Assembly: GCF_001693515.2 (NCBI RefSeq)
Contig: NZ_CP042968.1
Location: forward strand, 806,001 to 870,000
Source of the DNA: Bradyrhizobium paxllaeri
GTDB lineage: Bacteria; Pseudomonadota; Alphaproteobacteria; Rhizobiales; Xanthobacteraceae
Reading direction: 5' to 3'
DNA length: 64,000 bases
Under the pieces are notes generated by a model that did no database searches, was not told the DNA's origin, and worked only from the letters and a program-made list of their open reading frames with translations. This document shows positions 5,286 through 48,507 of this stretch, piece after piece (within the stretch, counting starts at the first letter, position 1; every line of letters starts with the position of its first letter). A program made the position numbers and the translations under genes.

Positions 5286-5294
5286 CGTCCCGCC

Positions 5295-8903: not shown

Positions 8904-9734
8904 ATGTCGAGTTTGCCAATGGAAGTCATCGAGGTGGTCGGCCAGACGATGGCGAAGGTCGTTCCGGTCACGATCGTGCTCGCCGTTGTATTCACGGTGC
9001 TCTCGCATTTCTGGGCCTGCAATCCCGGCAAACCCTGGTGGCGCAAGCGCGAACTCATTACCGACATCTGCTACTGGTTTTTCGTGCCGGTGTTCGCGCG
9101 CATCTTCCGCATCGGCCTATTGGTGATCGGCGCTTCAGTCGTCTTCAACATTCACGAGGTCGACGAACTGATCGCATTCTACGACAACGGCCATGGACCG
9201 CTGGCGCAGCTTCCGCTCTGGATGCAGGCGATACTGTTCCTCGTCGCGTCCGACTTCATGCTGTACTGGCTGCACCGCATGTTTCACGGCGGCGGGTTCT
9301 GGAAATATCACGCCATCCATCATTCCTCGGAAGATCTCGAGTGGATCTCGGCGGCGCGCTTTCACCCCGTCAACCTGTTCATCGGAACGATCCTGGTCGA
9401 CGTCATCCTGCTGATGGCGGGCATATCGCCTAACATCATGCTGTGGGTGGGGCCGTTCACGACCTTCCACTCCGCCTTCGTTCACGCCAACCTGAACTGG
9501 ACGCTCGGGCCGTTCAAATATGTGCTGGCCACGCCGGTCTTCCATCGCTGGCATCACACCTCGCTGGAAGAGGGCGGCAACACCAATTTTGCGGGCACCT
9601 TTCCGCTCTGGGACATTCTGTTCGGAACGTTCCGCATGCCCGAGAACCGGCTGCCTGAAACTTACGGCGTGGACGAAGATCAGCAGGTCCCGACCGAGAT
9701 TGGCGGGCAACTGGCCTATCCATTTCGTCAATAG
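8904..9734 (+). CDS. Fatty acid hydroxylase / sterol desaturase family protein, copy 1
   Basis: Integral-membrane di-iron oxygenase of 276 residues. The histidine clusters of the superfamily are present: HRMFH (HxxxH), HAIHH and HRWHH (HxxHH), with several membrane segments between. The family hydroxylates or desaturates sterol, hopanoid, carotenoid or acyl substrates, and the substrate here cannot be read from sequence. It closely resembles the protein at 12319-13146 (about three quarters of residues identical by eye). It is followed after 19 nt by the GT-C-like gene, so 8904-13146 reads as one operon. Confidence 0.85.
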   Translation: MSSLPMEVIEVVGQTMAKVVPVTIVLAVVFTVLSHFWACNPGKPWWRKRELITDICYWFFVPVFARIFRIGLLVIGASVVFNIHEVDELIAFYDNGHGPLAQLPLWMQAILFLVASDFMLYWLHRMFHGGGFWKYHAIHHSSEDLEWISAARFHPVNLFIGTILVDVILLMAGISPNIMLWVGPFTTFHSAFVHANLNWTLGPFKYVLATPVFHRWHHTSLEEGGNTNFAGTFPLWDILFGTFRMPENRLPETYGVDEDQQVPTEIGGQLAYPFRQ

Positions 9735-9753
9735 GACCGGCCGGTAATTTCGC

Positions 9754-11211: not shown

Positions 11212-12260
11212 CACGGCGCAACCAGTCGCTGGATCTTTTGCGCGGCGTCGCCATTCTGCTGGTCGTGCTGGTGCACTGCCAGGAAGAGTCCACCGGCGTC
11301 GTTCCCGGCCTGACCTGGTTTGCCAAGAACTACGGCGGGCTCGGCGTCCAGCTCTTTTTCATCATCAGCGGCTATACGATGATGCTGACATTCGGCGACA
11401 GGCTCGATCTGGCCGCCGCCCGCTCGTTCTATATCCGGCGCTTCTTCCGTATCGCGCCGCTGTTCTGGGTCGCCATTGTTTTTTATCTGCTGGCGACGCG
11501 CGGTCGCGGCATCACGAATTTTGCGCCTGACGGCGTCGGCGTCAGCGAGGTGCTGCTGACGTTTTTCTTCCTGCATTCGTGCAGCGTCACCGCCTACAAT
11601 TCGGTCGTTCCGGGCGGCTGGAGCATTGCGGTGGAAATGCAGTTCTATCTGCTGTTCCCGCTGCTGATCTACCTGTTCCGCCGCCGCAACGGCGCCACGC
11701 TGTGTTACACGTCGATCGCGCTTGTCAGCGTCATCGGACAATTGGCCGTCGAGCCCTATCTGATTCCGCGGTTGGCGGCGTCGCTGCCCGCCAGCCAGGC
11801 GTTTCTGGCTGAAGGCGTCTTCACCAGCTGGCTGCCGCGCCAGGTGATCTGCTTCGGCTTTGGTATCCTGCTGTATGACTATATCGAGCTGAAGAACAGG
11901 CCGACATTCGCCGCGCTGCTGCTGCTCGGCGCTGCGCTGATCGTCACGCCGCAGGCTGCCGAAATCGCGCTGCTGGCTGCATTCGCGTTCGGTGTCCTGA
12001 TCTCGAACGTCGCGCTGTCCTGGATGACGGTGCTGGGACGCCACTCCTACGCCATCTATCTCGTTCATTTCGCCGTGGTGTCGCTGATCGCCGGACTGGT
12101 CCCGGTGGGCCTGGTGCCGCTGTTCTTGCTGGTTTCCACCGTGTCGCTGGCGTTCAGCTATTATCTGATCGAGCCCCGGATCGAGCGTCCCTTCAACCGG
12201 CTGGGCCACGCATTGGCGTCGGCCGGTGGTGCCCCGAAAGCCGTCGTGACGACCGCCTGA
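11208..12260 (+). CDS. Acyltransferase family 3 membrane protein
   Basis: 350-residue membrane O-acyltransferase of the OafA/Acyl_transf_3 type, which transfers acyl (often acetyl) groups to surface sugars or lipids. The family signature is at the N-terminus (LDLLRGVAILLVVLVHC, with the catalytic-region His), then FFIISGYTM, the Arg-rich SFYIRRFFRIAPLFW, and about ten membrane segments. It is translationally coupled to the upstream GT-C-like gene and 58 nt from the second desaturase. This suggests synthesis or decoration of a surface glycolipid. Confidence 0.88.
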   Translation: MTRRNQSLDLLRGVAILLVVLVHCQEESTGVVPGLTWFAKNYGGLGVQLFFIISGYTMMLTFGDRLDLAAARSFYIRRFFRIAPLFWVAIVFYLLATRGRGITNFAPDGVGVSEVLLTFFFLHSCSVTAYNSVVPGGWSIAVEMQFYLLFPLLIYLFRRRNGATLCYTSIALVSVIGQLAVEPYLIPRLAASLPASQAFLAEGVFTSWLPRQVICFGFGILLYDYIELKNRPTFAALLLLGAALIVTPQAAEIALLAAFAFGVLISNVALSWMTVLGRHSYAIYLVHFAVVSLIAGLVPVGLVPLFLLVSTVSLAFSYYLIEPRIERPFNRLGHALASAGGAPKAVVTTA

Positions 12261-12318
12261 AGCCCGCCGACGGCTGGGCAACTGGCGGCGAGGCGGGGAT
12301 TCTGATACGCCGGTCGAA

Positions 12319-13146
12319 ATGAATCTGCCGACCGAAATCGTCGAGATGTTCGGCCAGACCCTGGCCAAGGTGGTGCCCGTCACGATCGCGCTGGCGTTGC
12401 TGTTCTCGCTGCTTTCGCATTTCTGGGCCTGCAATCCCGGCAAGCCCTGGTGGCGCAAGCGCGAGCTCGTCACCGACGTCTGCTACTGGTTCCTGGTGCC
12501 GCTGTTCGCGCGCGTATTTCGCATCGGGCTGCTTGTGCTCGGCGCCGCGCTGCTGTTTGGAATTCGCGATGCCGACGAACTGATCGCCTTCTATGACAAC
12601 GGCCACGGCCCGCTATCGACGCTGCCCTTGTGGCTGCAGGCGATCCTGTTCCTGGTCGCCGCCGATTTCATGATGTACTGGCTGCACCGCATGTTTCATG
12701 GCGGCGGGTTCTGGAAATACCATGCCATCCACCATTCCTCAGAGGACGTGGACTGGATCTCGGCGGCGCGCTTTCATCCCGCCAACCTGCTGCTCGGGAC
12801 CATCGGGGTTGACGTCGCGCTGCTGCTGGCCGGCATTTCGCCGGGCGTGATGCTCTGGCTCGGGCCGTTCAACATCTTCCATTCGGCCTTCGTCCACGCC
12901 AACCTCAACTGGACGCTCGGGCCGCTCAAATACGTCGTGGCGACGCCGGTGTTTCACCGCTGGCACCACACCGCCCGCGAAGAGGGCGGCGACACCAATT
13001 TCGCAGGCACCTTTCCGCTCTGGGACCTCCTGTTCGGGACCTTTCGGATGCCGAAAGACCGCCTGCCGGAGCATTATGGCGTGGACGATCAGGTCTCGTT
13101 TCCCCGCGAGATCGTCGGGCAACTGGTCTATCCGTTCCGCAAGTAG
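12319..13146 (+). CDS. Fatty acid hydroxylase / sterol desaturase family protein, copy 2
   Basis: 275 residues, a paralogue of 8904-9734 with the same three histidine boxes (HRMFH, HAIHH, HRWHH). DNA is also highly similar over most of the length, for example around 8996-9050 versus 12410-12465, which indicates a fairly recent duplication or gene conversion. Differences concentrate in the N-terminus and in the periplasmic loops. It closes the four-gene block that interrupts the pilus genes. Retention of all metal-binding histidines suggests both copies are active. Confidence 0.85.
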   Translation: MNLPTEIVEMFGQTLAKVVPVTIALALLFSLLSHFWACNPGKPWWRKRELVTDVCYWFLVPLFARVFRIGLLVLGAALLFGIRDADELIAFYDNGHGPLSTLPLWLQAILFLVAADFMMYWLHRMFHGGGFWKYHAIHHSSEDVDWISAARFHPANLLLGTIGVDVALLLAGISPGVMLWLGPFNIFHSAFVHANLNWTLGPLKYVVATPVFHRWHHTAREEGGDTNFAGTFPLWDLLFGTFRMPKDRLPEHYGVDDQVSFPREIVGQLVYPFRK

Positions 13147-13177
13147 AGCCGGACCCGCAGGGCCACGTTAGCGCAAA

Positions 13178-13234
13178 AGTGGGCACCGGTTTTCCCTCGC
13201 GACAAACGCGAATGCGCTTGCGCGGAGATCATGC
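13178..13234. repeat. Dispersed intergenic repeat, copy A
   Basis: The stretch from GTGGGCACCGGTTTTCCCT to GGAGATCATGC closely matches 57261-57314 (both contain ACCGGTTTTCCC, GCGACAAACGCG and TTGCGCGGAGATCATGC). A diverged relative with the same GATCATGC ends lies at 46462-46510. These are short non-coding dispersed elements of the kind common in this genus. Confidence 0.75.
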
Positions 13235-13384
13235 TCAAATCAAAAAGGGTAAATGGCGGATTTCTTGCCGCCGGGCGCGGCCTATTTGCCCTTTGTTCAT
13301 GAATTGTCGTCAGATTCACCTTGTCGGGCGCCGGTTCCGCTGTGTATCCGCCATTGCCGGCCTGTTGATGCCCCGGGGTAGAGT

Positions 13385-35636: not shown

Positions 35637-36245
35637 ATGTCATCGTCTGCCAGAATTGCGCTCTTTATCGATGGTGCCAATCTGTACTCGACCGCCAAGG
35701 CGCTCGGCTTCGACATCGACTACAGGCGTCTATTGACGGAATTCCAGGACCGTGGCGCGCTGTTGCGCGCGTTCTACTACACGACCATTATCGAGGATCA
35801 GGAATATACATCGATCCGTCCGCTGATCGATTGGCTCGACTATAACGGCTACACCGTCGTCACCAAGCCCACCAAGGAATTCATCGACGCCAGCGGCCGG
35901 CGCAAGGTGAAGGGCAGCATGAATATCGAGCTTTCCGTCAATGCAATGGAGCTCGCCGATCATGTCGATGCCATGTATCTGTTCTCGGGCGACGGGGACT
36001 ACCGTCCGCTGCTGCAAGCGGTGCAGCGTCGCGGCGTCCACGTCACCGTCGTTTCCACTCTGGCTAGCCAGCCACCGATGGTGGCCGACGAACTGCGCCG
36101 TCAGGCTGATACCTTTCTCGACCTTGCGGATTTGAAGCCGAAGCTGGGCCGCGATCCCTCGGAGCGGCCGCCGGCACGCGAGCTCCGCCAACAATCGCCG
36201 CAATTCCTGCGCGCGACGGTCAATGGAAATGGTCTGGCCAAATGA
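35637..36245 (+). CDS. NYN-domain (LabA/PIN-like) protein
   Basis: 202 residues. NYN domains are PIN-fold putative RNases. Acidic residues of the predicted metal site are visible in ARIALFIDGANLYSTAK, MNIELSVNAMELAD and LFSGDGDYRPLLQAVQ, with the typical KGSM segment before. A C-terminal tail of about 35 residues is disordered. I chose the ATG at 35637 (MSSSARIALFIDG); an in-frame ATG at 35619 is possible. The gene is followed by a candidate small RNA. Confidence 0.87.
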   Translation: MSSSARIALFIDGANLYSTAKALGFDIDYRRLLTEFQDRGALLRAFYYTTIIEDQEYTSIRPLIDWLDYNGYTVVTKPTKEFIDASGRRKVKGSMNIELSVNAMELADHVDAMYLFSGDGDYRPLLQAVQRRGVHVTVVSTLASQPPMVADELRRQADTFLDLADLKPKLGRDPSERPPARELRQQSPQFLRATVNGNGLAK

Positions 36246-36336
36246 TTGACCCTTTGCCCCGCAGACGCGCCGGATTTGCGCGCGCCGTGTGAACCAGTTC
36301 ACGTCGCCTTCGCCGGGCTCGCGGTATTATTGTCGT

Positions 36337-36471
36337 GACACGGAGACGACGCTTCGGGAAGGGCGATCCAGGTTCGCGGCCAGGCACCTCCCCCTGGCTG
36401 GGCCACCAGCTTCGATCTGAAAGCTGGTCGGACTGATCCGGCGCGTTCCACCAGCGCGCCGGATCTTTTTT
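36337..36471 (+). ncRNA. Candidate small RNA with anti-Shine-Dalgarno loop
   Basis: Three consecutive hairpins end in a classic terminator. Hairpin 1: GCCAGG (36379-36384) with CCTGGC (36393-36398) and loop CACCTCCC, an exposed CCUCC anti-Shine-Dalgarno. Hairpin 2: ACCAGCTT (36405-36412) with AAGCTGGT (36421-36428). Hairpin 3 is the terminator at 36435-36471. A TATTAT (36325-36330) could be the -10, so the start is placed near 36337. No family could be named. The alternative is a long 3' region of the NYN gene. Confidence 0.5.
36435..36471 (+). terminator. Intrinsic terminator
   Basis: Perfect 11-bp arms GATCCGGCGCG (36435-36445) and CGCGCCGGATC (36455-36465), then six T. It lies 190 nt after the NYN gene, unusually far for that gene, which is why a separate small transcript is suspected. 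Confidence 0.88.
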
Positions 36472-36513
36472 GCGCGCAACGACATGGAGCCATTGTCTGC
36501 AAGCTGCTAAGCG

Positions 36514-37401
36514 ATGGGCATGGATGCGGTGCGGGGCGACAGGTGGATCGGCTTTCTCTGCCTGGGCGTCACCGCCTTCGGATGGGCGCTGAACTGGCCG
36601 CTTATGAAGCTGTTGCTGCAGCAATGGCCGCCGCTGTTTGCCCGCGGGCTGGCCGGCGTCGCCGCGGCAGTCATCCTGTTCGGATTAGCGAAGGCGTGGG
36701 GACAGTCGCTGCAGGTCCCGCGCGAGGCGCTGGGTCGGTTGTCGTTCGCGTCCTTCACCAACGTGTTCGCCTGGATGGGATTTTCCACGGTGGCGATGAA
36801 GTTCGTCCCCGTCGGCGAGGGCGCGCTGATCGTCTACACCATGCCGATCTGGGCCACGCTCCTGGCATGGCCACTGGCCGGAATCCGGCCCAAGCTCGTG
36901 GACATCGCAGCGCTCGTTCTCGGCGTCGGCGGTATCGCCGTGCTGCTGGGAGGCAACGGCCTTAGCTTCGACAGCGGGCGGATCGTCGGAATCCTGCTGC
37001 TGTTTTCCGCGGCGATCCTGTTTGCGGTCGGCAATATCCTCAACCGCGTTGCCTTGCCGATGCCGCCTTTGGTCGTGGTCGCCTGGCAGGTCGGGCTCGG
37101 CTGTCTTGTGATGCTGATCCTTGGCGTTGCGTTCGAACAGCCGAACTACCGCGCGCTCACTGCGCAAGGCCTGGCGTGCTTCGTCTACATGACGCTGGTG
37201 CCTATGGGGCTCTGCTATCTCACCTGGTTCGAGACCCTGCGCCGCCTGCCGCCGTCATCGGCCTCGACCGGCATGTTGCTGGTGCCGCTGATCGGCGTGA
37301 TCTCGGCGGCGCTCATCCTCGGCGAGCCGCTCGGTGCGCGCGAGATTGTCGCGATGGTGCTGGTGCTGGCCGGCGTGGCGCTGGCGCTGCAGCGGGCGTA
37401 A
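36514..37401 (+). CDS. DMT-superfamily (EamA) transporter
   Basis: 295 residues with ten membrane segments in two EamA repeats (first GVTAFGWALNWPLMKLLLQQ, second from about residue 155, with GLCYLTWFETLRRLPPSSAS near 230). Such proteins export or import small metabolites. Substrate unknown. An ATG two codons further in is an alternative start. It is separated from the MFS gene by 84 nt. Confidence 0.88.
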   Translation: MGMDAVRGDRWIGFLCLGVTAFGWALNWPLMKLLLQQWPPLFARGLAGVAAAVILFGLAKAWGQSLQVPREALGRLSFASFTNVFAWMGFSTVAMKFVPVGEGALIVYTMPIWATLLAWPLAGIRPKLVDIAALVLGVGGIAVLLGGNGLSFDSGRIVGILLLFSAAILFAVGNILNRVALPMPPLVVVAWQVGLGCLVMLILGVAFEQPNYRALTAQGLACFVYMTLVPMGLCYLTWFETLRRLPPSSASTGMLLVPLIGVISAALILGEPLGAREIVAMVLVLAGVALALQRA

Positions 37402-37485
37402 GCCGCATTGTTTGTTGAACTGCGCGGCGGGCCCGCATAGGCTCGCTGCAGCAACAAGAAAATAACCGGAAACGTCCCTTCACCG

Positions 37486-38772
37486 ATGCAGTCCGCCGAG
37501 CGGCCTTTCCCCCACCGCCGGGGCCTGATCATCGTCGCGACACTGGCCACCGCCTATGTCGCCAGCCATTTTTTTCGCGCCTCCAACGTCACCATCGGCC
37601 TCGATCTGATGCGCGATCTCGCCATCGGGCCGGAAGCGCTGGGGGCGCTGACCGGCGCGTTCTTCTTCGGCTTTGCCGCGATGCAGATTCCCTGCGGCTT
37701 CTTCTTCGACCGTTTCGGCCCGCGCTATACCGTGGTCGGCATGCTGATCGTGGCCTCGATCGGTGGTGCAATGTTCACGCTGGCGCCGAGCTGGCCGGTG
37801 CTGCTCACCGGCCGCGTGCTGATGGGCGCCGGCTGCGGCGTGATGCTGATCGGCAGCATGGTGGTGATCTCGCGCTGGTTTCCGCCCGATCGTTTTTCCA
37901 CGCTGACCGCGATGGTGCTGTCGATCGGCCTGCTCGGCAACCTCGCGGCCACCACGCCGCTTGCCTGGGCATCGCAGGCGGTTGGCTGGCGTCCGGTGTT
38001 CGGCGCCGTCGTCGTCTTCATCGCGCTCGCTACCGTCGCGATCTTTCTGGTGGTGCGCGACGCGCCGCCCGGCCATCCCTTCCTGAGCCGCAAGGTGGAA
38101 CCATCAGGCGAGATGCTCAACGGCTTCCTCGAGGTGCTGCGCAACCCGCGCCTGAAGCCGATCCTGGCGCTGAATTTCTGCAACTACGCCTGCACCTTCA
38201 CCGTGCAGGGCTTGTGGGGCGGTGCGTTCCTGCGCGAGGTCCATGGTTTGAGCCCGATCGCAGCCGGCAACATCCTGCTTTGCGCCGTGATTGCCTACCA
38301 GGCTGGCATGCTCGCCTTCGGCCCGCTCGACCGCCGGCTCGACACCCGCAAGGGCATTGCGATCGGCGGCACGCTGGTGATCGTTTGTCTGCTCGCGATT
38401 CTCGCGCTGTTCTCGCGCCCGCCGGCCTGGCTGCCGGTTGCCGTCATCATCGCCATGGGCTTCTTCTCTGCTTCCTCTACCATGGTGATGACGCACGGCC
38501 GCGGCATCTTCCCCGACCGCCTGATCGGCCGCGGCATCGCAACCATGAACACCTCGGTGATGCTCGGCGTCGCCTGCATGCAGACGCTCTCCGGCATCAT
38601 CATCGGCGCGTTCGAGCCGCTCGCAAGCGGCGCGCGCACGGAAGACGCCTACCGCGCGCTGTTCGGCACGCTGACGCTGGTGCTGATTGCGGCGGTCGCG
38701 ATCTACAGCCGCTCGCAGGATGTCAAGCCGAGTGATGAGATGAAGGCGGCTCGCGATCCGGCGCGAGCTTAG
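37486..38772 (+). CDS. Major facilitator superfamily transporter
   Basis: 428 residues with twelve membrane segments. Loop 2-3 motif FFFDRFGPRYTVVGMLI fits the MFS GxxxDRxGRR motif, and segments AYVASHFFRASNVTIGLDL and MGAGCGVMLIGSMVVISRWF recall organic-anion or nitrate/phthalate-type members. The substrate cannot be assigned. Same strand as the DMT gene, possibly one transcript. Confidence 0.85.
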   Translation: MQSAERPFPHRRGLIIVATLATAYVASHFFRASNVTIGLDLMRDLAIGPEALGALTGAFFFGFAAMQIPCGFFFDRFGPRYTVVGMLIVASIGGAMFTLAPSWPVLLTGRVLMGAGCGVMLIGSMVVISRWFPPDRFSTLTAMVLSIGLLGNLAATTPLAWASQAVGWRPVFGAVVVFIALATVAIFLVVRDAPPGHPFLSRKVEPSGEMLNGFLEVLRNPRLKPILALNFCNYACTFTVQGLWGGAFLREVHGLSPIAAGNILLCAVIAYQAGMLAFGPLDRRLDTRKGIAIGGTLVIVCLLAILALFSRPPAWLPVAVIIAMGFFSASSTMVMTHGRGIFPDRLIGRGIATMNTSVMLGVACMQTLSGIIIGAFEPLASGARTEDAYRALFGTLTLVLIAAVAIYSRSQDVKPSDEMKAARDPARA

Positions 38773-39215
38773 CGAGCGGGTGCGGCCCAGGCTTCTGCGC
38801 CGCCTACAGGACAAGCAAGCATTCCGCCGGGGCTCAAGTCCGACATATGTGAGGTGCTTCACAGACACCACGTGGCTAAATTTGATATGACGCCCGCGCG
38901 TTCCGTCACCACTCCCAGCGCGCTCATCTGCAGCGATTGGTCTTGGAGAAGAACGGACGTGCGTAATCGTCGTTCTTGGATGCCGACAATTACGTCAAGC
39001 CGGATCAAATGCGCTCAAGGTCCTTGCCACGGCTCGAATAGACGTGGTCGTGTGAAGGGCTTGGGGGCGCGCGCGATGCGACCCGGATATTGGACGTTGC
39101 AATTCGCTCGATGGTATCGATGGTTTTATTGAAGTATTGAAGGCAGTGGTATTCCCGTAGGGGTGGGTAGCCAAGCAAGGGCGCTTTATTCACTCCTCTT
39201 CGCGACGAGGTTTTC
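38773..39215. other. Gene-free stretch before the peroxidase module
   Basis: 443 bp with no convincing gene. One frame near 38972-39040 reads DADNYVKP, reminiscent of a response-regulator core, but is too short to call a gene remnant. The last 200 bp are A/T-richer and must contain the promoter of the 39216 gene; GACGAGG precedes its ATG. No sigma-54 or EcfG consensus was found. Confidence 0.45.
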
Positions 39216-39821
39216 ATGGCCGATCGTGCGCGCAATAAGGACGGACTTGGCAAAGCCGTTACGTTCAACGTCATCACGCCGATGAATCGCTTCGGCACCT
39301 GCGTCGTTCGCTTGCTGCTCTGGATATTCGATCGCTGGAAGCGAACCCAGAACACCGCGAAGGCGCTGGCGTTTCTGCCTTTCGTTCATTGGGTTGTGAT
39401 CAAGCGCGATCGCTTTCCGCAACTCGAAGGTCAGCCTGCGGAAAAGCTGAACTACGATTATCTGTTCTTTTTGAGCACGTTCAATGGTCCGTGGGGTCCT
39501 TACATCGAGGCCTTCGCGGACGTCCTCTATGCGCCACTCGACGCCGTGTGGTTCTGGAGCATCCGCTATCCCATGGCCCGGCCGGTCGGGCCGCTGAAGA
39601 CGTACATCAAACGCAATCAGGTCGAGTCGGATCACTCGTACAGCGCTTACCCCGGCGCCTCGGTGCGCGACGTCCGTGCGGGCCTCGAGGTACGCCGCGA
39701 GCTTGAACAGTTCGCGAGAGATTCGCGCGACCTGGCGCCCGATAAATTTGCGACGGAATTCGATCGCCTGCTCATGAGCCTGCAGAACAAGCTGGGTAGC
39801 TTCGGCCCCATTCCCAAGTAG
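39216..39821 (+). CDS. Protein of unknown function, family X member 1 (peroxidase operon)
   Basis: 201 residues, no signal peptide, one possible amphipathic/hydrophobic stretch near residue 30. A core FVHWVVIKRDRFPQ, then LNYDYLFFLSTFNGPWGPYI, then DAVWFWSIRYP aligns by eye with VVHMARFVVIDRL, SNYLLFACDFDGFSIDVLI and KTIWQNCRGFPG of the next protein, so the two appear to be distant paralogues. Function unknown. It is 27 nt upstream of member 2 and starts the run of genes leading to DyP, the catalase-like protein and the cyclase. Confidence 0.72.
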   Translation: MADRARNKDGLGKAVTFNVITPMNRFGTCVVRLLLWIFDRWKRTQNTAKALAFLPFVHWVVIKRDRFPQLEGQPAEKLNYDYLFFLSTFNGPWGPYIEAFADVLYAPLDAVWFWSIRYPMARPVGPLKTYIKRNQVESDHSYSAYPGASVRDVRAGLEVRRELEQFARDSRDLAPDKFATEFDRLLMSLQNKLGSFGPIPK

Positions 39822-39848
39822 CAAATCGTTCGAGCGGAGTACCCGCGC

Positions 39849-40436
39849 ATGGCAAATCAGAACGGCGAAAAATACGGCTTTACCGGACTGTTTCCAATCA
39901 AGGATGGGCAAACAGCCGCGTTGCGCGCCTTTCTGCGCACACTGGACGAAAAATATCCGCGCGGTTCGCCGTTGGCTGAGGTTTCGGTCGTCCACATGGC
40001 CCGCTTTGTCGTGATCGACCGGCTTGCCTATCAGGGAACGCCGGCGAAGGTCGATACACTGAAGTCAAACTATCTGCTGTTCGCCTGCGACTTCGACGGT
40101 TTCAGCATCGACGTTCTGATCCGTGAAATGGTCGCGCATATCCCGGATCAATTGAAGACCATTTGGCAAAACTGCCGTGGCTTTCCGGGCATCGAGAGCC
40201 GCGATGGTCTCTCCAGGTATTTTGAGCAGTGCCAGGTTACGACCAATTTGTTGCTGGCCGACCAGCCCGACGCCACCGTGAACGATATTCTGCTGGGGCT
40301 GATGTACCGGCGAGGGCTCGGGGAATTCATCAGGCACGTTCAGGAAACGCAGCCAACGCCGGCAGAACTCAAGGAAGACTTCGCGAAGTTGTGGCAAAGG
40401 CTGCAAGAAGTCAGGCCGCACGCAGGAGATTTGTGA
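39849..40436 (+). CDS. Protein of unknown function, family X member 2 (peroxidase operon)
   Basis: 195 residues, soluble. It contains TGLFPIKDGQTAALRAFLRT, a central VVHMARFVVIDRL and a beta-rich SNYLLFACDFDGFSIDVLI core, then KTIWQNCRGFPGIESRDG. The repeated pattern of hydrophobic strand, acidic-Gly turn and tryptophan suggests a ferredoxin-like domain, but I recognise no named family. It sits 29 nt before the DyP peroxidase start. Confidence 0.72.
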   Translation: MANQNGEKYGFTGLFPIKDGQTAALRAFLRTLDEKYPRGSPLAEVSVVHMARFVVIDRLAYQGTPAKVDTLKSNYLLFACDFDGFSIDVLIREMVAHIPDQLKTIWQNCRGFPGIESRDGLSRYFEQCQVTTNLLLADQPDATVNDILLGLMYRRGLGEFIRHVQETQPTPAELKEDFAKLWQRLQEVRPHAGDL

Positions 40437-40465
40437 CGACATAGCGATTGAAAGCGAGTACCGCG

Positions 40466-41860
40466 ATGTTCGACTTTTCCAATATTCAAGGCAATATTCT
40501 TCGTGGCTACGGCTCCTTTCCGCATGCGCGTTTCCTCTATCTGGCCATTCACGATGAGCGCGCTGCCAGGACGTTGCTGCAACAGCTCATGGACACGGGA
40601 TCCGTCACCCCCGGCCAGTGGAGCGAAAAGCCGGATACGACACTCAATCTTGCCCTGACCTTCGACGGCCTGCGCGCCCTCGGCCTTCCGGAGGAAAGTC
40701 TCGCGACTTTTCCGGCCGAGTTTCGGGAGGGCATGAAAGTCCGTGCAGACGAACTCGGAGATGTCGGAAAGAGTTCGCCGCGATATTGGGATGAACCGTG
40801 GAGGACGGGCCGCGTCCATCTCCTGGTCATGATCTATGGCAAGACGGAAGCAGCGCTCGAGGCTGGTTGCCGAAACTTCCGGCGGTTGTTGCCGGCCGGT
40901 CTGGAGGAACTCGGGCCTGAGCAATCTGCCGAAAGTCTCCGCATCGAAGGCGAGACGGCGCGTCGTGAGCATTTCGGTTTCGTCGACGGCGTGAGCAATC
41001 CCGATGTCGATGGTGTGCCGCGAGAGGCGGGCGCGGCGAGATCGCAGGACATAGGCAATCCCGATCACAGCGGAAAATTTCGCAAGATCCCGCTGGGGGA
41101 ATTCATCCTCGGCTACCCTGGCGAAGGTGGGGATCTCGCGCCGATGCCGCTGCCGAACCTGCTTGCGCATAACTCAACCTATATGGTGTTCCGCAAGCTC
41201 GAACAGAACGTACCGTTGTTTCGAGACTACATCAGCAAGCAAGCCAAATCGTTTGCCCGCACGATCCCCGGCGGTCTGCCGGACGACAAGAGCGCGGAAG
41301 AATTCCTGGCTGCCAAGATGATGGGACGGTGGCGCGACGGATCTTCGCTGATCAACCATCCGCATGCATCGGCCAAGGATATCAGCAATGCATTCGCCTA
41401 TGCCGACGATCCTGCGGGCGCGCGATGTCCGTTGGGGGCCCATGTGCGGCGCACCAATCCGCGCGATGCGCTGGGTTTTGGCGGCAAGACCATGAGCCGG
41501 CACCGCCTGATCCGCCGCGGCATCACCTACGGCAAGTATCTTCCGCCTGGCGATCGTGATGAGGAACGGCGGGGCCTCATCTTCATCGCCTTCAATTCCG
41601 GCTTTGATCAATTCGAGTTCGTGCAGCAGTTATGGATCAACTTCGGCGACGAGTTCGAGCAGGGCAACGACGGCGATCCGATTGCCGGCAGTCGCGAGGG
41701 CAGCCAAATGATGATCCCGGGCGACGAGGCCACGGGACGGCGGCCATTTATATGCTTCGACATCCCGCGCTTTGTCGAAACCAAGGGCGGCGATTATTTC
41801 TTTGTCCCGAGCCTCGCCGCGCTCAGGCTGTTGGCCTCCGGCAGAGTGCACGCGTCATGA
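40466..41860 (+). CDS. DyP-type heme peroxidase
   Basis: About 464 residues from ATG 40466; an in-frame TTG at 40448 is less likely. DyP proteins use H2O2 to oxidise dyes, lignin-like or other organic substrates. The GxxDG motif GFVDGVSNP carries the catalytic Asp, and the proximal heme His is in GAHVRRTNPRDA. Start NIQGNILRGYGSFPHARFL is typical of the long (class C/D) DyPs. No signal peptide, so cytoplasmic. Its stop overlaps the next start (ATGA). Confidence 0.93.
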   Translation: MFDFSNIQGNILRGYGSFPHARFLYLAIHDERAARTLLQQLMDTGSVTPGQWSEKPDTTLNLALTFDGLRALGLPEESLATFPAEFREGMKVRADELGDVGKSSPRYWDEPWRTGRVHLLVMIYGKTEAALEAGCRNFRRLLPAGLEELGPEQSAESLRIEGETARREHFGFVDGVSNPDVDGVPREAGAARSQDIGNPDHSGKFRKIPLGEFILGYPGEGGDLAPMPLPNLLAHNSTYMVFRKLEQNVPLFRDYISKQAKSFARTIPGGLPDDKSAEEFLAAKMMGRWRDGSSLINHPHASAKDISNAFAYADDPAGARCPLGAHVRRTNPRDALGFGGKTMSRHRLIRRGITYGKYLPPGDRDEERRGLIFIAFNSGFDQFEFVQQLWINFGDEFEQGNDGDPIAGSREGSQMMIPGDEATGRRPFICFDIPRFVETKGGDYFFVPSLAALRLLASGRVHAS

Positions 41861-43194
41861 GCCGGTCCGTCACCCCGCGGCGGCTCGATCAGCCCGCAAC
41901 AGGGAAGTGGCTCATGGCGCATCTCATTGGAGATCAGCCAGTCAGCCTCGGCTTCCGCACGGCGCGCCGCCTGAGGGAATTCGGCCAGATGGTGCTCCAG
42001 ATCGTGCGCCCGGCGCGACACGGCCCTGAGCGGACATCGGCCGCGAGCCCGGCGCGATACCGGCACCTCGTGAACGCGCTGGAATTTCCGGACCGGCCAA
42101 TGCCGTTGCATGTGCTCGAGCGGGCCGTGCCTGGCGAGGCAACCATGACCCGGCAAATGGCGCGCATTGCCGCAGAAGCGGTGATTAGCAATTACTGCAC
42201 GAGCAGGGTCTCGGACAGCTTCGTCCCCGCGATGCGCGACCAGCACGCGAAGTCGCACGGATGCGTGACCGCGGAATTGATCGTTCGCGAGGATCTTCCG
42301 GCCGAGTTCACCACAGAGCTGTTTCGTCCAGGTGCTCGCTATCCGGCCGTGGTCCGGTTTTCCAACGGGCTCGGCCGGCGCCAGAGCGACCGCAGGATGG
42401 ACGCGCGCGGCATGTCCATCAAGCTTCGCGAGGTCGGGACGAAGACCATTCTTTCAACGCTGGTGCCCGACAAGGTGTCACCCGGCGAGCATGATTTCGC
42501 GCTCTCCAGCTTTCCGATCTTCTTCTGCAAGGATGTGGTCGATTATACGCAGCTGATGAACGCGGTGAGTGCACCACAGGCAACCTGGCGGGAAAAGCTT
42601 CGCAAGGCAGCGCTATGGCTCGGGTTCATAGTTCGGCGTCCGCGCCAATTTTACCTGTTTTTGCGGACGGCGCTGCAGGGCCTTTTCACCATCCGCAATC
42701 CGCTGACGGCCACCTATCACAGCATGTCGCCGTTCTTGTTCGGCGAGCACAGGGTCGTGCGCTATGTGGTTGGTCCTGCCGGCGGCCGAGACAAGCCCGC
42801 CCGATGGTGGACATTCATGTTTTGGGCTCGATCGAAAAGCTTTCTTCAGGATGCGCTTGTACGGGATCTGGACCCGCATGCGCGTCAGCCCGGCCTTGAT
42901 GCCGTGCTGGATTTCTCCATACGGGTGCGGCACGCCGCCACGTCGGATGACGTCGAGGATGCGTCCCGGTGGTGGACCCGTCGCAACGACAAGATCGTGC
43001 GGCTGGGGAGCATTGCTATTCCACGGCAGAACTTTCTGGCGCAGAATCAGCTGTACGATACCGAGCACATGATGTTCAATCCCTGGAACTGTCTGCCCGA
43101 GCACAGACCACTAGGCAGCGTCAACCGGATGCGGCTTGCGGTCTATCTTGCCTCGCGGCAGATACGACGGAAATTGAACCTGGTCGCGTCATGA
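41857..43194 (+). CDS. Catalase-fold heme protein
   Basis: 445 residues, catalase superfamily but diverged. Distal His lies in QHAKSHGCVTAELIV; the barrel continues with PAVVRFSNGLGRRQSDRR, DARGMSIKL and HDFALSSFPIFFCKD; the proximal Tyr is in RLAVYLASRQ with Arg four residues before. Where catalases have an NN-x-P segment bearing the distal Asn, this has SSFP, so the Asn seems absent. That points to a peroxidase, hydroperoxide isomerase or lyase rather than a true catalase. Both ends overlap neighbours by ATGA. Confidence 0.83.
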   Translation: MSRSVTPRRLDQPATGKWLMAHLIGDQPVSLGFRTARRLREFGQMVLQIVRPARHGPERTSAASPARYRHLVNALEFPDRPMPLHVLERAVPGEATMTRQMARIAAEAVISNYCTSRVSDSFVPAMRDQHAKSHGCVTAELIVREDLPAEFTTELFRPGARYPAVVRFSNGLGRRQSDRRMDARGMSIKLREVGTKTILSTLVPDKVSPGEHDFALSSFPIFFCKDVVDYTQLMNAVSAPQATWREKLRKAALWLGFIVRRPRQFYLFLRTALQGLFTIRNPLTATYHSMSPFLFGEHRVVRYVVGPAGGRDKPARWWTFMFWARSKSFLQDALVRDLDPHARQPGLDAVLDFSIRVRHAATSDDVEDASRWWTRRNDKIVRLGSIAIPRQNFLAQNQLYDTEHMMFNPWNCLPEHRPLGSVNRMRLAVYLASRQIRRKLNLVAS

Positions 43195-46100
43195 ACAGCC
43201 AGCCGCCGCCCGATCCGTCGGGCGGACTTCAGCGGACATCGTCGCCGCCGAACGTCGAGGGCGAGGCGCTGCACGCCGAACGTCGGCAGCTTACCGTGGT
43301 ATTTGTCGACATCGTCGGCTCGACGCCGCTGAGCGAGCGGATTGATCCGGAAGACTTCTTCGCGGTTATCAGAACCTACCGCGATATCTGCGACGAGCAG
43401 ATTCGCCGCTACGGCGGTCACATCGCCAGAATGATTGGCGACGGATTGCTGGCCTATTTCGGCGTGCCACAAGCCCATGAAAACGATCCTGAACGGGCGG
43501 TGCGCGCCTCGCTGGCGATCGCTGCGGCAATCAAGGAACAGAAGTTTCCCCTGTCGGATGGCAGCTTCGTCCGCCTTGGTGTGCGCATCGGGGTCAACAC
43601 CGGGGAGGTCGTCGTCGGCAGCGTGCCCGGCGAGCCCGCTGATCGGCGTGAAGTGTTCGGCAGCTCGGCACATGTCGCTGCCCGCCTGCAAGGGCTCGCC
43701 AGTGAGAATGGTGTCGTGGTCGGTTCGAGCACCTACGAGCTGACGCGCGGCACGTTCAGCTACACGCCGCTTGGCAGGCGCCCGCTCAAGGGCGTGGAAG
43801 AGCCGGTCGAAGCCTGGCGTGCGGAAGCGCTGGCGTCCAGCGGAAGCAGGTTCGACCGGGCGCAGAGGTCGCCTTTGGCCCCGATGATCAACCGAACCAA
43901 CGAAGGCGCATTGCTTGCCGAGATGTGGCGGCAGGCTGCAGCGGGCTCGGGACGGGTCGGCGTGGTTTCCGGTGAACCCGGCATCGGCAAGTCACGCCTG
44001 ATCCGCCAGTTCCGCAGTAATCTTGATGCGTCTCCGCGTGAGGTTCTGTCGCTGCAGTGCTCGCCGTTCCACGTCAACACGCCGCTTGCTCCGGAAATCG
44101 AGCGGCTCAGGCGCGCGACCGGCATCCAGGAAACCGACGACCCCGAACTTGCATTGGCGAAATTGCGCGCGCTCCTGGCACGAGCCGTGCCCAATGTTGG
44201 GCACGCGCTTCGCTACTACGGAGCGGTCCTGTCGATACCGGCCTGCTCGGAGTACGAACCGGCGGATCTCGGATCTCCTTTTGAGCGAGAGCGTGCTTTT
44301 CAGGTGTTCATCGATGTTCTCGTCTCGGCGTCGCGCAGGCAGCCTATCCTGATGATCTTCGAGGACGTTCAATGGATGGATCCGACCACCATCGAACTGC
44401 TGGTACGCGTGATAGCTCACTGTTCCGGCGAGCGGGTCATGATCCTGATCACGCATCGCGATGACTACCGGGCGGACTGGTTGTCGGGCTCTGCAATTCA
44501 ACGGATTGCTCTGCAAAAGCTGGCAACGCATTACTGCGAGGAGATGGTCGCAGCCGTCGCTGGCAAGGATATCGTGTCGCGCCGGATTACCAGCCAAATC
44601 GTGGAAAGAACCGATGGCGTGCCACTCTTTGTCGAGGAGTTTACGCGGGCCGTGATCGATTCCAGCACGGTCGCCAATGCCGCTGACGGCTTGGCGCTGG
44701 GCGAAAAACTGCCCAAACCGCTGGTGCCGTCAAGCATTCACGATTCGCTGATGGAGCGCCTTGATCGTCTCGGTCCCGCCAAGCGCGTCGCCCAGATCGC
44801 CTCCGTCTTCGGAAGGCAATTCACCTATGACGGCATTTTCAACGTACTCCCGGGTAAAGGCGAAACGCTGAGACGCGCGTTGCAGGCACTGGCGAGCGCC
44901 GGCGTCGTGTATCGCATCGAGGAATCTCAAGGCACCGTCTTCACCTTCAAGCACGCGATGATACAGGAAGTCGCCTATTCCTCGCTGCTCAAGGAGGAAA
45001 GGCGCGAGCTCCATGCGCGCGTCGCGTCGTGGTTGCTCCAGGAGGCCGCGATCGGCGAGAGCAGCCAGCCTGCCGTGCTCGGCTATCACTATGCGCGCGC
45101 GGGGAACATCCCGGAAGCGATCGAGGCCTGGCTTCAGGCGGGTAAATCCGCGCTCCGCCGATCCGCAACCAAGGAGGCCGTTGCCCATCTTCGCGAGGGT
45201 CTCTCGCTGATACCGAAGCTGCCCGCCTCGGCGCGGCGTTTCGAGGCTGAAATCGCGCTGCAATCCAACCTGGCGATGGCATACACCGCCAACGCAGGAT
45301 GGTCCGACCCGAACGTCTATGGACCGTATAGTCGCGCACTCAAACTTTGCGCGAACTATGGCACCATTCGCGAGAAGGCGACGGTGCTGTGGGGAAGTAC
45401 CATCGCCAAACTGGTCAACTGCGAGCTCACCAAGGGCCTCAAACACGCACAGGATTTCGTCCGGCGGGCCGAGGAGTGGCGCGACGACGAGGCCGCCCTC
45501 ATGGCGTATACCGCTGCCTTGATCGCCAATTTCTTTCTCGGTCGTCTGGAGCAGGCGGCTGAACTCGCGACTCTGGTCAGCGCCCGCTACAATCCTCGCG
45601 AGCATGCCAAGCTGGTCCAGATCTATCAGCATGATCCATTGATCGTGTCGCTCGTCTATTCCGGACACACCGAATGGCTGTTGGGCCGGCCCGGGCGGGC
45701 CCGAGAGTGCTGCGAAACGGCGCGACAGCTCGCGAGCGAGATCGGGCATCCTTTCATGCTGGCGTTTGCCTCTATTCTCGGGGTTAGCGATCATTGGTAC
45801 GAGGGCGATCTTGCGGCCAATCTGGCCAGCGTCGAGCGCGGCATGAAGGTTGCTGACGAGTATGGCTATCCGATGTACCGGGTCATCGGTCCGTTGTGGG
45901 CGACCTCTGCGTTGGCGGCACGGGGCCCTGCGCCGGAAGTGCTCGAACACCTATGTCGCCTGCTCGGCAAACTGCCCGCCGAGAACAGGTGCATCCAGAT
46001 GCCGCTCTATCGAATCCTGCTCGCCACGGAGTTCGGAAGAATCGGGCAGATAGAAAGAGCTCGGAGCTTCGCTGCTTCGGCCGAAGCTCTGATGAAGCAA

Positions 46101-46412
46101 ACCGGCGAACGCTGGGCTGCTCCCGAGATTTATCGGATTCACGGCTCGCTGTTGTGCCAGGAACCTTTGCGGGACGACCGGGCGGCCAAGCGTCTGTTCA
46201 AGCGCTCGCTGGACTCCGCCAGGAAGCTCGGGGCGGTGGGCTGGGAATTGCGCACTGCCATCAGTATCGCCCGCCTGCTCAGCGCTGACGATGGCGCATC
46301 CGGGCGCGCTGAGGCGCGCGAACTGCTGATATCAACCAGGGCGAAATTCGCCTCCGCGGAAACTTCCGGCGATCTGCGCGAGGCGGACGAACTGGTAAGA
46401 GCGCTGAACTAA
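43191..46412 (+). CDS. Class III adenylate/guanylate cyclase fused to AAA ATPase and TPR-like region
   Basis: 1073 residues. N-terminal cyclase domain (about 30-205): LTVVFVDIVGSTPLSERIDP with first metal Asp, RMIGDGLLAYFGVPQAHEND with second, and FGSSAHVAARLQ, where the usual Asn before AAR is His. Then a MalT/ORC-like ATPase (about 230-560) with Walker A GEPGIGKSRLIRQ and Walker B-like PILMIFEDVQWMDP, then an all-helical TPR-like region to the end. Such proteins may make cAMP in response to ligand or protein binding. The start overlaps the catalase-like stop (ATGA), so it is co-translated with it. Confidence 0.88.
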   Translation: MNSQPPPDPSGGLQRTSSPPNVEGEALHAERRQLTVVFVDIVGSTPLSERIDPEDFFAVIRTYRDICDEQIRRYGGHIARMIGDGLLAYFGVPQAHENDPERAVRASLAIAAAIKEQKFPLSDGSFVRLGVRIGVNTGEVVVGSVPGEPADRREVFGSSAHVAARLQGLASENGVVVGSSTYELTRGTFSYTPLGRRPLKGVEEPVEAWRAEALASSGSRFDRAQRSPLAPMINRTNEGALLAEMWRQAAAGSGRVGVVSGEPGIGKSRLIRQFRSNLDASPREVLSLQCSPFHVNTPLAPEIERLRRATGIQETDDPELALAKLRALLARAVPNVGHALRYYGAVLSIPACSEYEPADLGSPFERERAFQVFIDVLVSASRRQPILMIFEDVQWMDPTTIELLVRVIAHCSGERVMILITHRDDYRADWLSGSAIQRIALQKLATHYCEEMVAAVAGKDIVSRRITSQIVERTDGVPLFVEEFTRAVIDSSTVANAADGLALGEKLPKPLVPSSIHDSLMERLDRLGPAKRVAQIASVFGRQFTYDGIFNVLPGKGETLRRALQALASAGVVYRIEESQGTVFTFKHAMIQEVAYSSLLKEERRELHARVASWLLQEAAIGESSQPAVLGYHYARAGNIPEAIEAWLQAGKSALRRSATKEAVAHLREGLSLIPKLPASARRFEAEIALQSNLAMAYTANAGWSDPNVYGPYSRALKLCANYGTIREKATVLWGSTIAKLVNCELTKGLKHAQDFVRRAEEWRDDEAALMAYTAALIANFFLGRLEQAAELATLVSARYNPREHAKLVQIYQHDPLIVSLVYSGHTEWLLGRPGRARECCETARQLASEIGHPFMLAFASILGVSDHWYEGDLAANLASVERGMKVADEYGYPMYRVIGPLWATSALAARGPAPEVLEHLCRLLGKLPAENRCIQMPLYRILLATEFGRIGQIERARSFAASAEALMKQTGERWAAPEIYRIHGSLLCQEPLRDDRAAKRLFKRSLDSARKLGAVGWELRTAISIARLLSADDGASGRAEARELLISTRAKFASAETSGDLREADELVRALN

Positions 46413-46461
46413 AGCGTGATGACTTTTCTTCGAATCGTCATCCCGCTTTATCTTTTTGTTT

Positions 46462-46510
46462 GAGCATGATCTTTTCGGAAAACCGCTACACACTTTTCCG
46501 GATCATGCTC
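46462..46510. repeat. Nested palindrome, dispersed repeat (diverged copy)
   Basis: GAGCATGATC (46462-46471) faces GATCATGCTC (46501-46510). Inside, CGGAAAA (46476-46482) faces TTTTCCG (46494-46500). It shares GATCATGC and GGAAAA/TTTTCC features with 13178-13234 and 57246-57314. It lies between two convergent genes and could also halt transcription. Confidence 0.7.
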
Positions 46511-46599
46511 TAGCTTGTCAGCGCGTGATCGCTGCAGGATTGCTGGCGCCGGCGGCATGAGCGCGCCTGATGCGAAAGGAGGGTTGAACTGGTGCGTTG

Positions 46600-47757
46600 T
46601 CAGTTCGCCAAATTCGCCAGCGGAATTTGCACCTTGATGATCAGGCCGTTCTGCGACCAGTCGTAATCGATGCGGCCGTTGTGCGAGGCAATCGTTGAGG
46701 CAACCAGATTGCTGCCAAATCCCAACTGAGCCGGCGCCTCGACCGGTTTGCCGATTTCACGCCAGACGATGTCGACGTTTTCGTTTTCGATCCGCCACGC
46801 CACGTCGACCTTTCCGTCATCCCGGAGAGCGCCGTATTTCGCGGCGTTGGTTGCGAGTTCGTGGAAGACGAGGGCGATGCTGTTGGTGGCGCGTTCTCCC
46901 AGCGACACCATCGGCCCGTTCAGCTCAGGCATGCTGTAAGGCCGGAGCACGGTACGGATGGCCTCCGCCATGTCCACGCCCTTGAGGGCGCTGCCGGCAT
47001 TGAACGAGCGCCGAACCAGCGAATGGGCATCGGAGAGGGCGGTGAGGCGGCCGGTCAGTGACTCGGTCATCTCTTCCTTGGTTTCGGTGTGCCGCGCGGT
47101 CATCTTGATCATCGCGCCGGCAACGGCAAACAGGTTCTTGACCCGGTGGCTCATCTCCTTGGCCAGGATCTCCTGGGCTTCGAGCGCCTTCTTCAAGTGA
47201 AGGTCAGTGTGGATCATCTGCAGCGCGATGCCGGTGAACACGGCCAGCTCGGACAGCACGCGCGCATGCCCCGAGTGGAACTTGTGTCCCTCCTTGGCGA
47301 CCACCCAAAGCGTCCCAACCGGGATGGTGCCGTTCCTCAACAGCGGCACCAGCAGAACTTCGGGCACGGTGATGTTAGCTTCCGCAATCCACGAGTAAGC
47401 GCGCTCGGGCCGCTCCATCAGGATCGGACTGCTCTGGTCGAGACAAACGCCGCACGGGCTGAAGTTCCGGGGCGTGGTCGCGCCTTCGAACACCGATAAT
47501 TTGCCGACGAGGGAGTTCCAGCGAAACACGTCGCCATCGAGAACGCTGACGCCGGCCGAGTCCGCGTCGCAAGCTTCCATCGACAGCCTGACGAGGCGCG
47601 GCAACACTTCGGCGGGATGATCCGCCATGTTGCTGGCGAGGTCCTGCAGTGCCAGCTTTTCGCTGAGGTAATCGGGCGCTGGCGCCGGGCGAACCAAAAG
47701 TTCGTCGGTCGTGAAAACCTGCGCTATTGCGGCGGGCAGTTCTGTTGGGCGGCCCAT
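46600..47757 (-). CDS. Cytosolic HWE-family sensor histidine kinase with GAF domain
   Basis: About 385 residues, no membrane segment. N-terminal GAF-like sensor domain (about 45-190, including FSPCGVCLDQSSPILMERPE, a segment also seen in light- or redox-sensing GAF domains), then HWE kinase domain with EMSHRVKNLFAVAGAMIKM (phospho-His) and a full N-box HELATNAAKYGAL plus G-box LGFGSNLV. In contrast to the kinase at 30254, the ATPase site looks complete. ATG 47757 has a GGAGGGGGAAGAG Shine-Dalgarno. No cognate regulator is adjacent. Confidence 0.88.
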   Translation of the reverse strand: MGRPTELPAAIAQVFTTDELLVRPAPAPDYLSEKLALQDLASNMADHPAEVLPRLVRLSMEACDADSAGVSVLDGDVFRWNSLVGKLSVFEGATTPRNFSPCGVCLDQSSPILMERPERAYSWIAEANITVPEVLLVPLLRNGTIPVGTLWVVAKEGHKFHSGHARVLSELAVFTGIALQMIHTDLHLKKALEAQEILAKEMSHRVKNLFAVAGAMIKMTARHTETKEEMTESLTGRLTALSDAHSLVRRSFNAGSALKGVDMAEAIRTVLRPYSMPELNGPMVSLGERATNSIALVFHELATNAAKYGALRDDGKVDVAWRIENENVDIVWREIGKPVEAPAQLGFGSNLVASTIASHNGRIDYDWSQNGLIIKVQIPLANLAN

Positions 47758-48120
47758 GATCTCTTCCCCCTCCGGCACTATAACCCGGAGATCTTCGGCG
47801 CCTGGCTCGCTAGTTTGTCGGGGCAGAGTTTCGTCAGGATCGTAACTGGATCACGTTGCGCCAATTCAGCATCGCTCGTCGTCGATCCATCAGCAGAAAA
47901 AAGCAGGGCGCGACCGGCATCACCACGGTCGCGCCCTACGTCGCCGGTCAATGGGGCAGGGGGAATAACCGGCTGCCGGGATGACTCCGACCCCCCCAAA
48001 GTCGTTCCATGGTGCCGCAAATATTTTTCGTACACGGTTAAGTGATCGAGAAGTGCCGGACCCCCGGCGGCTCGCTTCGGGTTATTTCGGTGATCGCCAT
48101 GGGGCGAGGGATGCACCGTC
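47758..48120. other. Divergent intergenic region before the exported protein at 48121
   Basis: 363 bp holding promoters for both neighbours. The notable feature is a minus-strand terminator (47897-47936) that does not follow any gene. A long minus-strand frame through the region runs through this hairpin and shows no known domain, so it is not called. Confidence 0.5.
47897..47936 (-). terminator. Orphan intrinsic terminator on the minus strand
   Basis: Perfect 11-bp arms GGGCGCGACCG (47906-47916) and CGGTCGCGCCC (47926-47936). On the minus strand TGC and six T follow (47902-47897). There is no minus-strand gene between here and 48507, so a short minus-strand transcript starting around 47950-48120 would be needed to use it. 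Confidence 0.7.
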
Positions 48121-48507
48121 ATGTCACAGATTTTCCAAGCAATTTTTACCGTTCTCGCCGTCTCCGCCACGTTAGGCGCCGTCCAGCTTGCTTCCGGTCA
48201 TGATCTCACCGGCCGCCAGGAACTCACTCCACCCGCGCCTGCGACGGACATCAACCGTGCTGCCAAGGCCGACCGCGTGGGCCTGAAGGTCGCACCGGGT
48301 GAGAGTGAGACGATTACGATCCGCACCGTCGGTCTCAAGGATACGTCGGTGGTGGTTCGGGTTCCCGTCGTCAAGGACGAAGCACGGAACCGCCCGCCGC
48401 CGCCAGCCAAGCCCGACAAGCCGAAGACGACGATTGCCTGCGAACCGCCGGTCAGCGTGCTGACCGAGGTCGCCAAGCTGCTTCAGCCCGGTCGCTGCGT
48501 GACCTGA
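48121..48507 (+). CDS. Exported protein of unknown function
   Basis: 128 residues with an N-terminal signal or anchor (IFQAIFTVLAVSATLGAVQL). The rest is Pro/Lys-rich, ending CEPPVSVLTEVAKLLQPGRC with two cysteines that could pair. Patterns like this, a short secreted protein closing with PGRC, are common in Bradyrhizobium but unassigned. The start is directly supported only by the open frame and the signal sequence. Confidence 0.65.
   Translation: MSQIFQAIFTVLAVSATLGAVQLASGHDLTGRQELTPPAPATDINRAAKADRVGLKVAPGESETITIRTVGLKDTSVVVRVPVVKDEARNRPPPPAKPDKPKTTIACEPPVSVLTEVAKLLQPGRCVT

Follow-up and report, generated by a model that had tools for sequence, protein, structure and literature searches.

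Five genes at positions 39216 to 46412 of a 64,000-nt stretch of the Bradyrhizobium paxllaeri genome (contig NZ_CP042968.1, positions 806,001 to 870,000; hereafter the window) are well supported as one version of a widespread bacterial gene module of heme enzymes. The core of this module, as read from sequence, consists of a DyP-type peroxidase and of family X, an unnamed family of predicted barrel fold whose genes adjoin DyP genes or are fused with them. Beside this core is a third slot, in which a cytochrome P450, a catalase-fold protein (CAT), and a di-heme cytochrome-c peroxidase are interchangeable. Family X, the module, and the exchange of the third enzyme appear to be undescribed, and the other parts belong to known enzyme families. 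Among titles and abstract openings of the open-access full-text literature, with subscription papers and preprints outside the scope, no paper describing this set was found.

Layout and distribution of the module

All five genes are on the forward strand (+). They encode X1 (39216..39821, 201 aa, matched by the X profile), X2 (39849..40436, 195 aa), a DyP-type peroxidase (40466..41860, 464 aa counted from its ATG, ahead of which an in-frame TTG lies at 40448), the catalase-fold heme protein (41857..43194, 445 aa), and a signaling protein of 1,073 aa with a class III nucleotidyl cyclase, a STAND-like AAA_16 part, and a TPR-like part (43191..46412). Gaps of 27 nt (X1 to X2) and 29 nt (X2 to DyP) are followed by two 4-nt ATGA overlaps, DyP/CAT at 41857..41860 and CAT/cyclase at 43191..43194. 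This layout, with its strand and positions, had been given in a preliminary description made from the letters of the window, and we confirmed it. The five-gene order was also present in three further genomes of the genus (G024, G163, and G342). The DyP/CAT overlap is present in all of the orthologous operons (4 of 4). At the CAT/cyclase junction, the window shares ATGA with L051, whereas L015 has GTGA and L052 has TAATGA. The host genome is a single contig of 8.38 Mb, in which DyP and CAT each had one match, and the named close relatives of the window genes were from Bradyrhizobium. No RNA element reached the gathering score in 36000-48500.

With a first X profile, built from 15 rows, 41 of the 296 genomes of the family gave a match; a wider profile of 25 rows did so in 12 of 387 genomes of the class and in 26 of 397 genomes of the phylum. 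The counts below are based on 63 X loci from 60 genomes, which were selected by X and annotated with local profiles; 18 of them are from the window's own genus. The operon of the window's genome, L133, and L019 (G059, with the contig end about 110 bases past X) stand outside this set, as do the X profile hits in G226, G246, G165, G302, G320, G331, G347, G289, G199, G265, G273, G296, G864, and G875. Gene ends were taken as those of the longest open frames, and the gaps are therefore lower bounds.

DyP was found in 62 of the 63 X loci and shares the strand of X in every case. The distance is 300 bp or less in 61 of them (L092 has 1033 bp), and the two genes are fused in 13. The sole X locus without DyP was L076, where the contig edge falls within X. 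Plasmid records with DyP matches numbered 81, and X was near DyP in 16 of the 17 examined (L115-L124 and L135-L141), which were drawn from 50 listed; the exception, L124, carries a Streptomyces DyP without X. Further loci with both genes were L013 and L014, reached via X, and L113, reached via CAT. Altogether, the pair was found in five phyla: Pseudomonadota, Acidobacteriota (Granulicella), Deinococcota, Actinomycetota (Rhodococcus and Streptomyces), and Cyanobacteriota (Nostoc and Gloeothece). Fused genes occurred in every order among the loci, which speaks for joint action of the module parts.

The preliminary description had suggested that rare co-occurrence elsewhere would reduce the operon to a chance neighborhood. 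X, DyP, the third enzyme, and the cyclase recurred together far above chance, so that this refuting condition does not hold for them, and the proposal that two heme enzymes act together is also supported. The set of five is not obligatory; the full complement was seen in the window, in the three operons orthologous to it, and in L094, and at no other locus read.

Family X and the DyP peroxidase

X1 and X2 are homologs that share 24% identity across 185 columns (E 7e-11), and neither had a Pfam or NCBIfam match at E 0.1. Among 43 X-X fusions, no ABM family was matched and two weak, unrelated families were the only hits. The AlphaFold model of X2 (predicted local distance difference test, pLDDT, 78.8) has an ABM-like ferredoxin fold, and from the models X is predicted to form a dimeric alpha+beta barrel (ABM/SchA-like), X1 being one barrel half. 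This fold call is based on VIA re-alignment of the models; Foldseek alone gave nothing under E 0.001 for either X model, and sequence comparison with solved structures gave nothing below E 0.1, only weak hits that were apparently spurious. The ABM/SchA-CurD-like barrel proteins (WhiE-ORFI, 9LMN) share 11% identity with X, their function is not transferable, and no Pfam match at E 0.1 placed X in the ABM sequence family. For heme delivery, one of the roles that the preliminary description had suggested for the X proteins, we found no evidence. The possibility that X is a paralog of a DyP half-barrel was rejected (profile comparison probability 0.2%, with undetectable homology). As side observations, L085 (7364-10977) has one DyP with three X genes, and L120 (4264-7270) has the order X-DyP-NIPSNAP-X, in which NIPSNAP is another barrel protein in the set.

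The window DyP matched PF21105 (39.4 bits, cut-off 27.5) and PF20628 (28.5 bits, cut-off 20). The catalytic Asp of the GxxDG motif, the proximal His, and the distal Arg, which are functional residues of DyPs, were present in 64 of 64 aligned sequences, including that of the window. PF04261 had no match in the window's own genome despite the DyP there and is an unsuitable model here.

The third heme enzyme

The third enzyme was a P450 in 38 of the 63 loci, CAT in 11, and a RoxA-like di-heme cytochrome-c peroxidase in 4, with class labels that are not independent because the three profiles were seeded from and grown on these same loci. In L069 the P450 label is based on no more than an 84-aa fragment (E 2e-5), and in L067 on an incomplete gene where the contig ends. 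Two classes were never found together (0 of 63). All 53 third enzymes were at most 300 bp from X or DyP, 52 of them on the same strand (the exception is L078), and 16 were fused. Among the plasmid loci reached via DyP, CAT was present in 10 of 17, three of which are one cassette. The P450 of L053 was used as a query in 21 genomes chosen for having the module P450 as a separate gene; 23 matches with E 1e-15 or lower were obtained in 19 of the 21, and 21 of the matches were located at the module. Of the remaining two, one is half a gene on a different contig of G202, and the other lies elsewhere in G334. In G330 and G211 the query gave no match at E 1e-15, so that their module P450s were missed.

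The pocket residues of these enzymes were compared. The heme Cys was present in 36 of 36 P450 rows. The acid of the I-helix motif (A/G)Gx(D/E)T, a feature of oxygen-activating P450s, was missing from 33 of 35 module P450s (22 Pro, 10 Ala, and 1 Gly in this column), and it is kept in the canonical control, a second P450 present in L083. The window CAT matched Pfam Catalase (PF00199, 31.6 bits, cut-off 25) and keeps R-x-x-x-Y, with the proximal Arg and Tyr, and the distal His, which aligns with that of catalase 4b7f; both have known roles in the catalase pocket. R-x-x-x-Y was kept in 16 of 16 CAT rows and the distal His in 12 of 16, two rows being not from the module. The Asn pair of catalases is replaced by Ser-Ser in the window CAT and its three orthologs, which therefore lack the distal Asn of monofunctional catalases; the alignment place of this pair, and which of its positions is catalytic, are our assumptions. 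By analogy, the pocket residues of the P450s and CAT suggest hydroperoxide conversion rather than oxygen activation or H2O2 dismutation. The analogy is with CYP74 and the catalase-related allene oxide synthases (AOS) and hydroperoxide lyases (HPL) (PMC5617202, available part). Since the catalase-related AOS (cAOS) retains the catalase residues named in the available part of that paper, the residues alone are not decisive.

The cyclase-ATPase

The window protein matched Guanylate_cyc (PF00211, 72.8 bits) and AAA_16, with TPR models under their cut-offs, and both metal-binding Asp motifs are kept. It also scored 466 bits with NCBIfam TOMM_kin_cyc, under the cut-off of 706; separately, a Gloeothece X-DyP pair (L118) is near TOMM genes. 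The cyclase query gave 43 matches in the window's own genome, 9 rows of which span the cyclase and ATPase parts. Such a cyclase was found at the module in 21 of the 63 loci (0.36 expected) and in 7 of 37 genera (0.33 expected), where the expectation was calculated from the cyclase number per genome and the length read, assumes uniform placement, and treats related genomes that are not independent. None of the 21 was farther than 301 bp from a module gene. Ten of the loci belong to genomes that have a single such cyclase, and in six of these ten it is at the module. On the same strand, the cyclase is the last gene in the window type, the first in L101, L106, and L107, and follows a fused X-DyP-P450 gene in L064; in L020 it is convergent.

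The module cyclases do not form one clade, as the window's group nests among seven of eight paralogs from its own genome. In this tree, whose eight non-module cyclases are all from the own genome and whose long branches are flagged, the starred branches require at least three changes, which may be one gain and two losses. In G027 (L133, G027:C1:6416500-6436000, 5099-13275), the cyclase is of the window type (88% identical), but just the last 49 codons of its CAT gene are left. The 38 kb that were read contain no window-type X1, X2, or DyP; a different set of CAT, X, and DyP is convergent with the cyclase at 1.4 kb. From its sequence, this genome appears to have lost or replaced the operon and retained the cyclase.

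Other ATPases also occur at the module. L017 (9934-16215) has a protein with kinase, AAA, GAF, PAS, and histidine kinase domains by Pfam, and the AAA proteins of L018 (10479-16913) and of the Bradyrhizobium plasmid L136 (1-4267), which fit the same profile, gave no cyclase domain match. These proteins are very long, and their genes are divergent from X-DyP. Beside the window operon and convergent with it is an HWE histidine kinase gene with a GAF domain (46600-47778, -), which is kept alongside in G024 (L015).

Possible function and alternative explanations

We tentatively favor, at somewhat under even chances, a heme system of two steps, in which a hydroperoxide, probably that of an unsaturated lipid, is made and converted, and to which a signaling ATPase is attached in some lineages. 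X1 and X2 would pair into a single dimeric alpha+beta barrel, which would bind either the substrate or DyP and control DyP activity. DyP would oxidize an unsaturated lipid or similar hydrophobic substrate, so that a hydroperoxide is made or used, and the third heme enzyme, which seems closer in its features to hydroperoxide isomerases and lyases than to an oxygen-activating P450 or an ordinary catalase, would turn it into a product. The cyclase-ATPase might sense substrate, product, or complex and give a nucleotide signal or a regulatory response. Lipid oxidation via a hydroperoxide is favored because of lipid genes near the module and a di-heme enzyme that shares the family name of oleate diol synthase. 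CAT-X-DyP sets in Roseomonas, Novosphingobium, and Agrobacterium are beside genes for oleate hydratase, 3-hydroxyacyl-CoA dehydrogenase, a thioesterase, and a TetR regulator. The 3-hydroxyacyl-CoA dehydrogenase gene also adjoins the module in Deinococcus radiodurans and Acinetobacter lwoffii, and a patatin gene does so in L064. The Roseomonas mucosa record of the cassette is from atopic dermatitis skin. An organic hydroperoxide had already been proposed as the substrate; the P450 and CAT pockets, together with the fatty acid genes at some loci, make this somewhat more plausible. The lipid substrate, the hydroperoxide chemistry, and a cAMP output are all what we infer from these sequences.

A more specific form of this proposal, an oxylipin-type bacterial system, is considered doubtful. 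The X-X barrel would present an unsaturated lipid and switch on DyP as a lipid oxygenase, a P450, CAT, or di-heme peroxidase would convert the lipid hydroperoxide, and a STAND-type cyclase or kinase would read the product. If this is true, the DyP of D. radiodurans (DrDyP) and its relatives would gain their missing activator and physiological substrate, and bacteria would have a parallel to the eukaryotic alternation of P450 and catalase fold among hydroperoxide enzymes.

Several observations weigh against the two-step lipid system. The three oleate hydratase cassettes (L123, L135, and L138) are one mobile plasmid-borne element of about 6.3 kb, about 92% identical, and lipid genes neighbor only a minority of loci, with none at the others examined. 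No third enzyme was found in 10 of the 63 loci; four of these are short contigs (L062, L076, L105, and L110), and six are in full-length stretches (L017, L018, L082, L085, L092, and L095), the next gene in L017 encoding DUF4331 and Polyketide_cyc2. Exclusivity of the third enzyme is called into question by L115, which is outside the 63 and has both CAT and a P450, but this P450 has a canonical AGHETT and is beside ferredoxin and reductase genes; the second P450 of L083 is likewise canonical. The CAT family also occurs without X or DyP, in three of the four plasmid loci reached via CAT (L001, L002, and L114). The I-helix acid is kept in 2 of the 35 module P450s (L063 and L075), the distal His is absent from 4 of the 16 CAT rows, and Asn stands at one of the two pair positions in 4 of 16 (L089, L097, L099, and the separate CAT of L100). 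In the window cyclase, the substrate Lys and the transition-state Asn are Arg and His at the aligned positions, and its catalytic competence is uncertain. The cyclase is missing from 42 of the 63 loci, and 14 of the 21 present are convergent on the opposite strand and therefore not on the module transcript; seven are on the same strand. The cyclase, first described as part of the operon, is recurrently linked to the module (21 of 63 loci).

The main and serious rival is peroxide detoxification, which we consider unlikely on balance. DyP and CAT would destroy H2O2 or organic peroxides, X would stabilize them, and the cyclase would sense oxidative stress. Both enzyme families act on peroxides, but the third slot is held by a P450 in most loci, and P450s are, to our knowledge, not general peroxide scavengers. 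The Ser-Ser replacement in the window CAT also argues against this explanation. In D. radiodurans, the module genes DR_A0145 and DR_A0146 were up after UVC/vacuum exposure (PMC5731708, available text), DR_A0146 was counted as one of three catalases (PMC7143949, available text), and its transcript was about twofold lower in a mutant of a CRP homolog (PMC4868304, available text). However, DR_A0146 scavenged H2O2 less efficiently than KatE1 (PMC7143949), and DrDyP had no activity at pH 7.5 (PMC10820274, available text).

A role in metabolite tailoring is less probable still. The module would oxidize a natural product other than a lipid (polyketide, terpenoid, or aromatic), and X would act as an oxygenase, decarboxylase, or cyclase of the ABM-like type. 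This explanation has the predicted ABM-like fold of X to build on, but a common fold does not demonstrate function. Polyketide synthases, nonribosomal peptide synthetases, and terpene synthases were found in 0 of 30 scanned proteins, a small sample of neighbors in which several are module proteins, and the module is a compact unit spanning five phyla.

The model of the preliminary description, with the operon as a sensor of an organic hydroperoxide and cAMP as its output, is improbable. The cyclase gene overlaps CAT in the window and is enriched at the module, and its metal-binding Asp residues are retained. Against this stand the altered Lys and Asn positions, the many loci without a cyclase or with a convergent one, and the ATPases of L017, L018, and L136, which are of the kinase type or have no matched cyclase domain. 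An anti-phage system with a Pycsar-like cyclase is very improbable: PADLOC PycC models matched the cyclase domain (best E 1.6e-19), but X1, X2, DyP, and CAT had no PADLOC match at E 0.01, the five genes include no Pycsar effector, the cyclase is missing from most loci, and Pycsar membership was rejected. A chance neighborhood of common genes, for which the number of cyclase-ATPases in the genus would speak, was refuted by the cyclase enrichment over loci and genera, the tight spacing, and the single-cyclase genomes.

Comparison with known systems

The module provides X, a family lacking a Pfam or NCBIfam entry, and a slot beside DyP that is shared by three unrelated heme enzymes. It also ties the cyclase/AAA signaling proteins, abundant in the genus, to an enzymatic partner. 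The catalase cluster of pNGR234a has a catalase-fold gene, which we take to be y4iL, of the same family as the window CAT, although a distant relative. In this stretch (L001, 4459-9810), the gene is beside a di-heme cytochrome-c peroxidase gene, a partial match to a second one, and a patatin gene, and, unlike in the window, X and DyP had no match.

The nearest solved relative of the window DyP is DrDyP (DR_A0145, class C (class V), PDB 8RE2/8RE3; E 5e-61). The DyP of plasmid locus L113 is DrDyP itself (1023 bits, with all 445 residues of 8re3 covered), and its gene is flanked upstream by an X gene and downstream by a catalase family gene, taken as DR_A0146 by locus number. Unlike the window, this locus had no cyclase-AAA match in its 16.9 kb stretch. 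In the available text of the DrDyP paper, the enzyme is inactive at pH 7.5, physiological DyP substrates are described as unclear, and interaction with other proteins, e.g., encapsulin, is proposed; the words operon and catalase and words beginning with neighbo- do not occur in that text (PMC10820274). The X gene beside DrDyP is therefore a concrete candidate for the suspected partner, which makes the DyP question directly testable.

The oleate diol synthase genes of Pseudomonas aeruginosa (PA2077/PA2078) carry the family name di-heme cytochrome C peroxidase, and X and DyP do not figure with them in the available text (PMC5155153). The third enzyme of L016 matched the NCBIfam family of this name (NF040606, 494 bits). 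The third enzymes of L060, L061, and L108 matched that of L016 by local profile, and all are likened to PA2077/PA2078 by family name alone.

Finally, in eukaryotes, fatty acid hydroperoxides are converted both by a P450 family (CYP74) and by an unrelated catalase-fold family (PMC5617202, available part). Against the PDB, no CYP74 was among the best 60 of 198 hits of the module P450, for which we claim no family membership, and neither of the two hits of the window CAT was a chain named catalase-related AOS. The eukaryotic catalase-related enzymes are fused to lipoxygenase, whereas the partner in the module is DyP with X. In both systems, P450 and catalase fold alternate, and in the module they do so in one slot.

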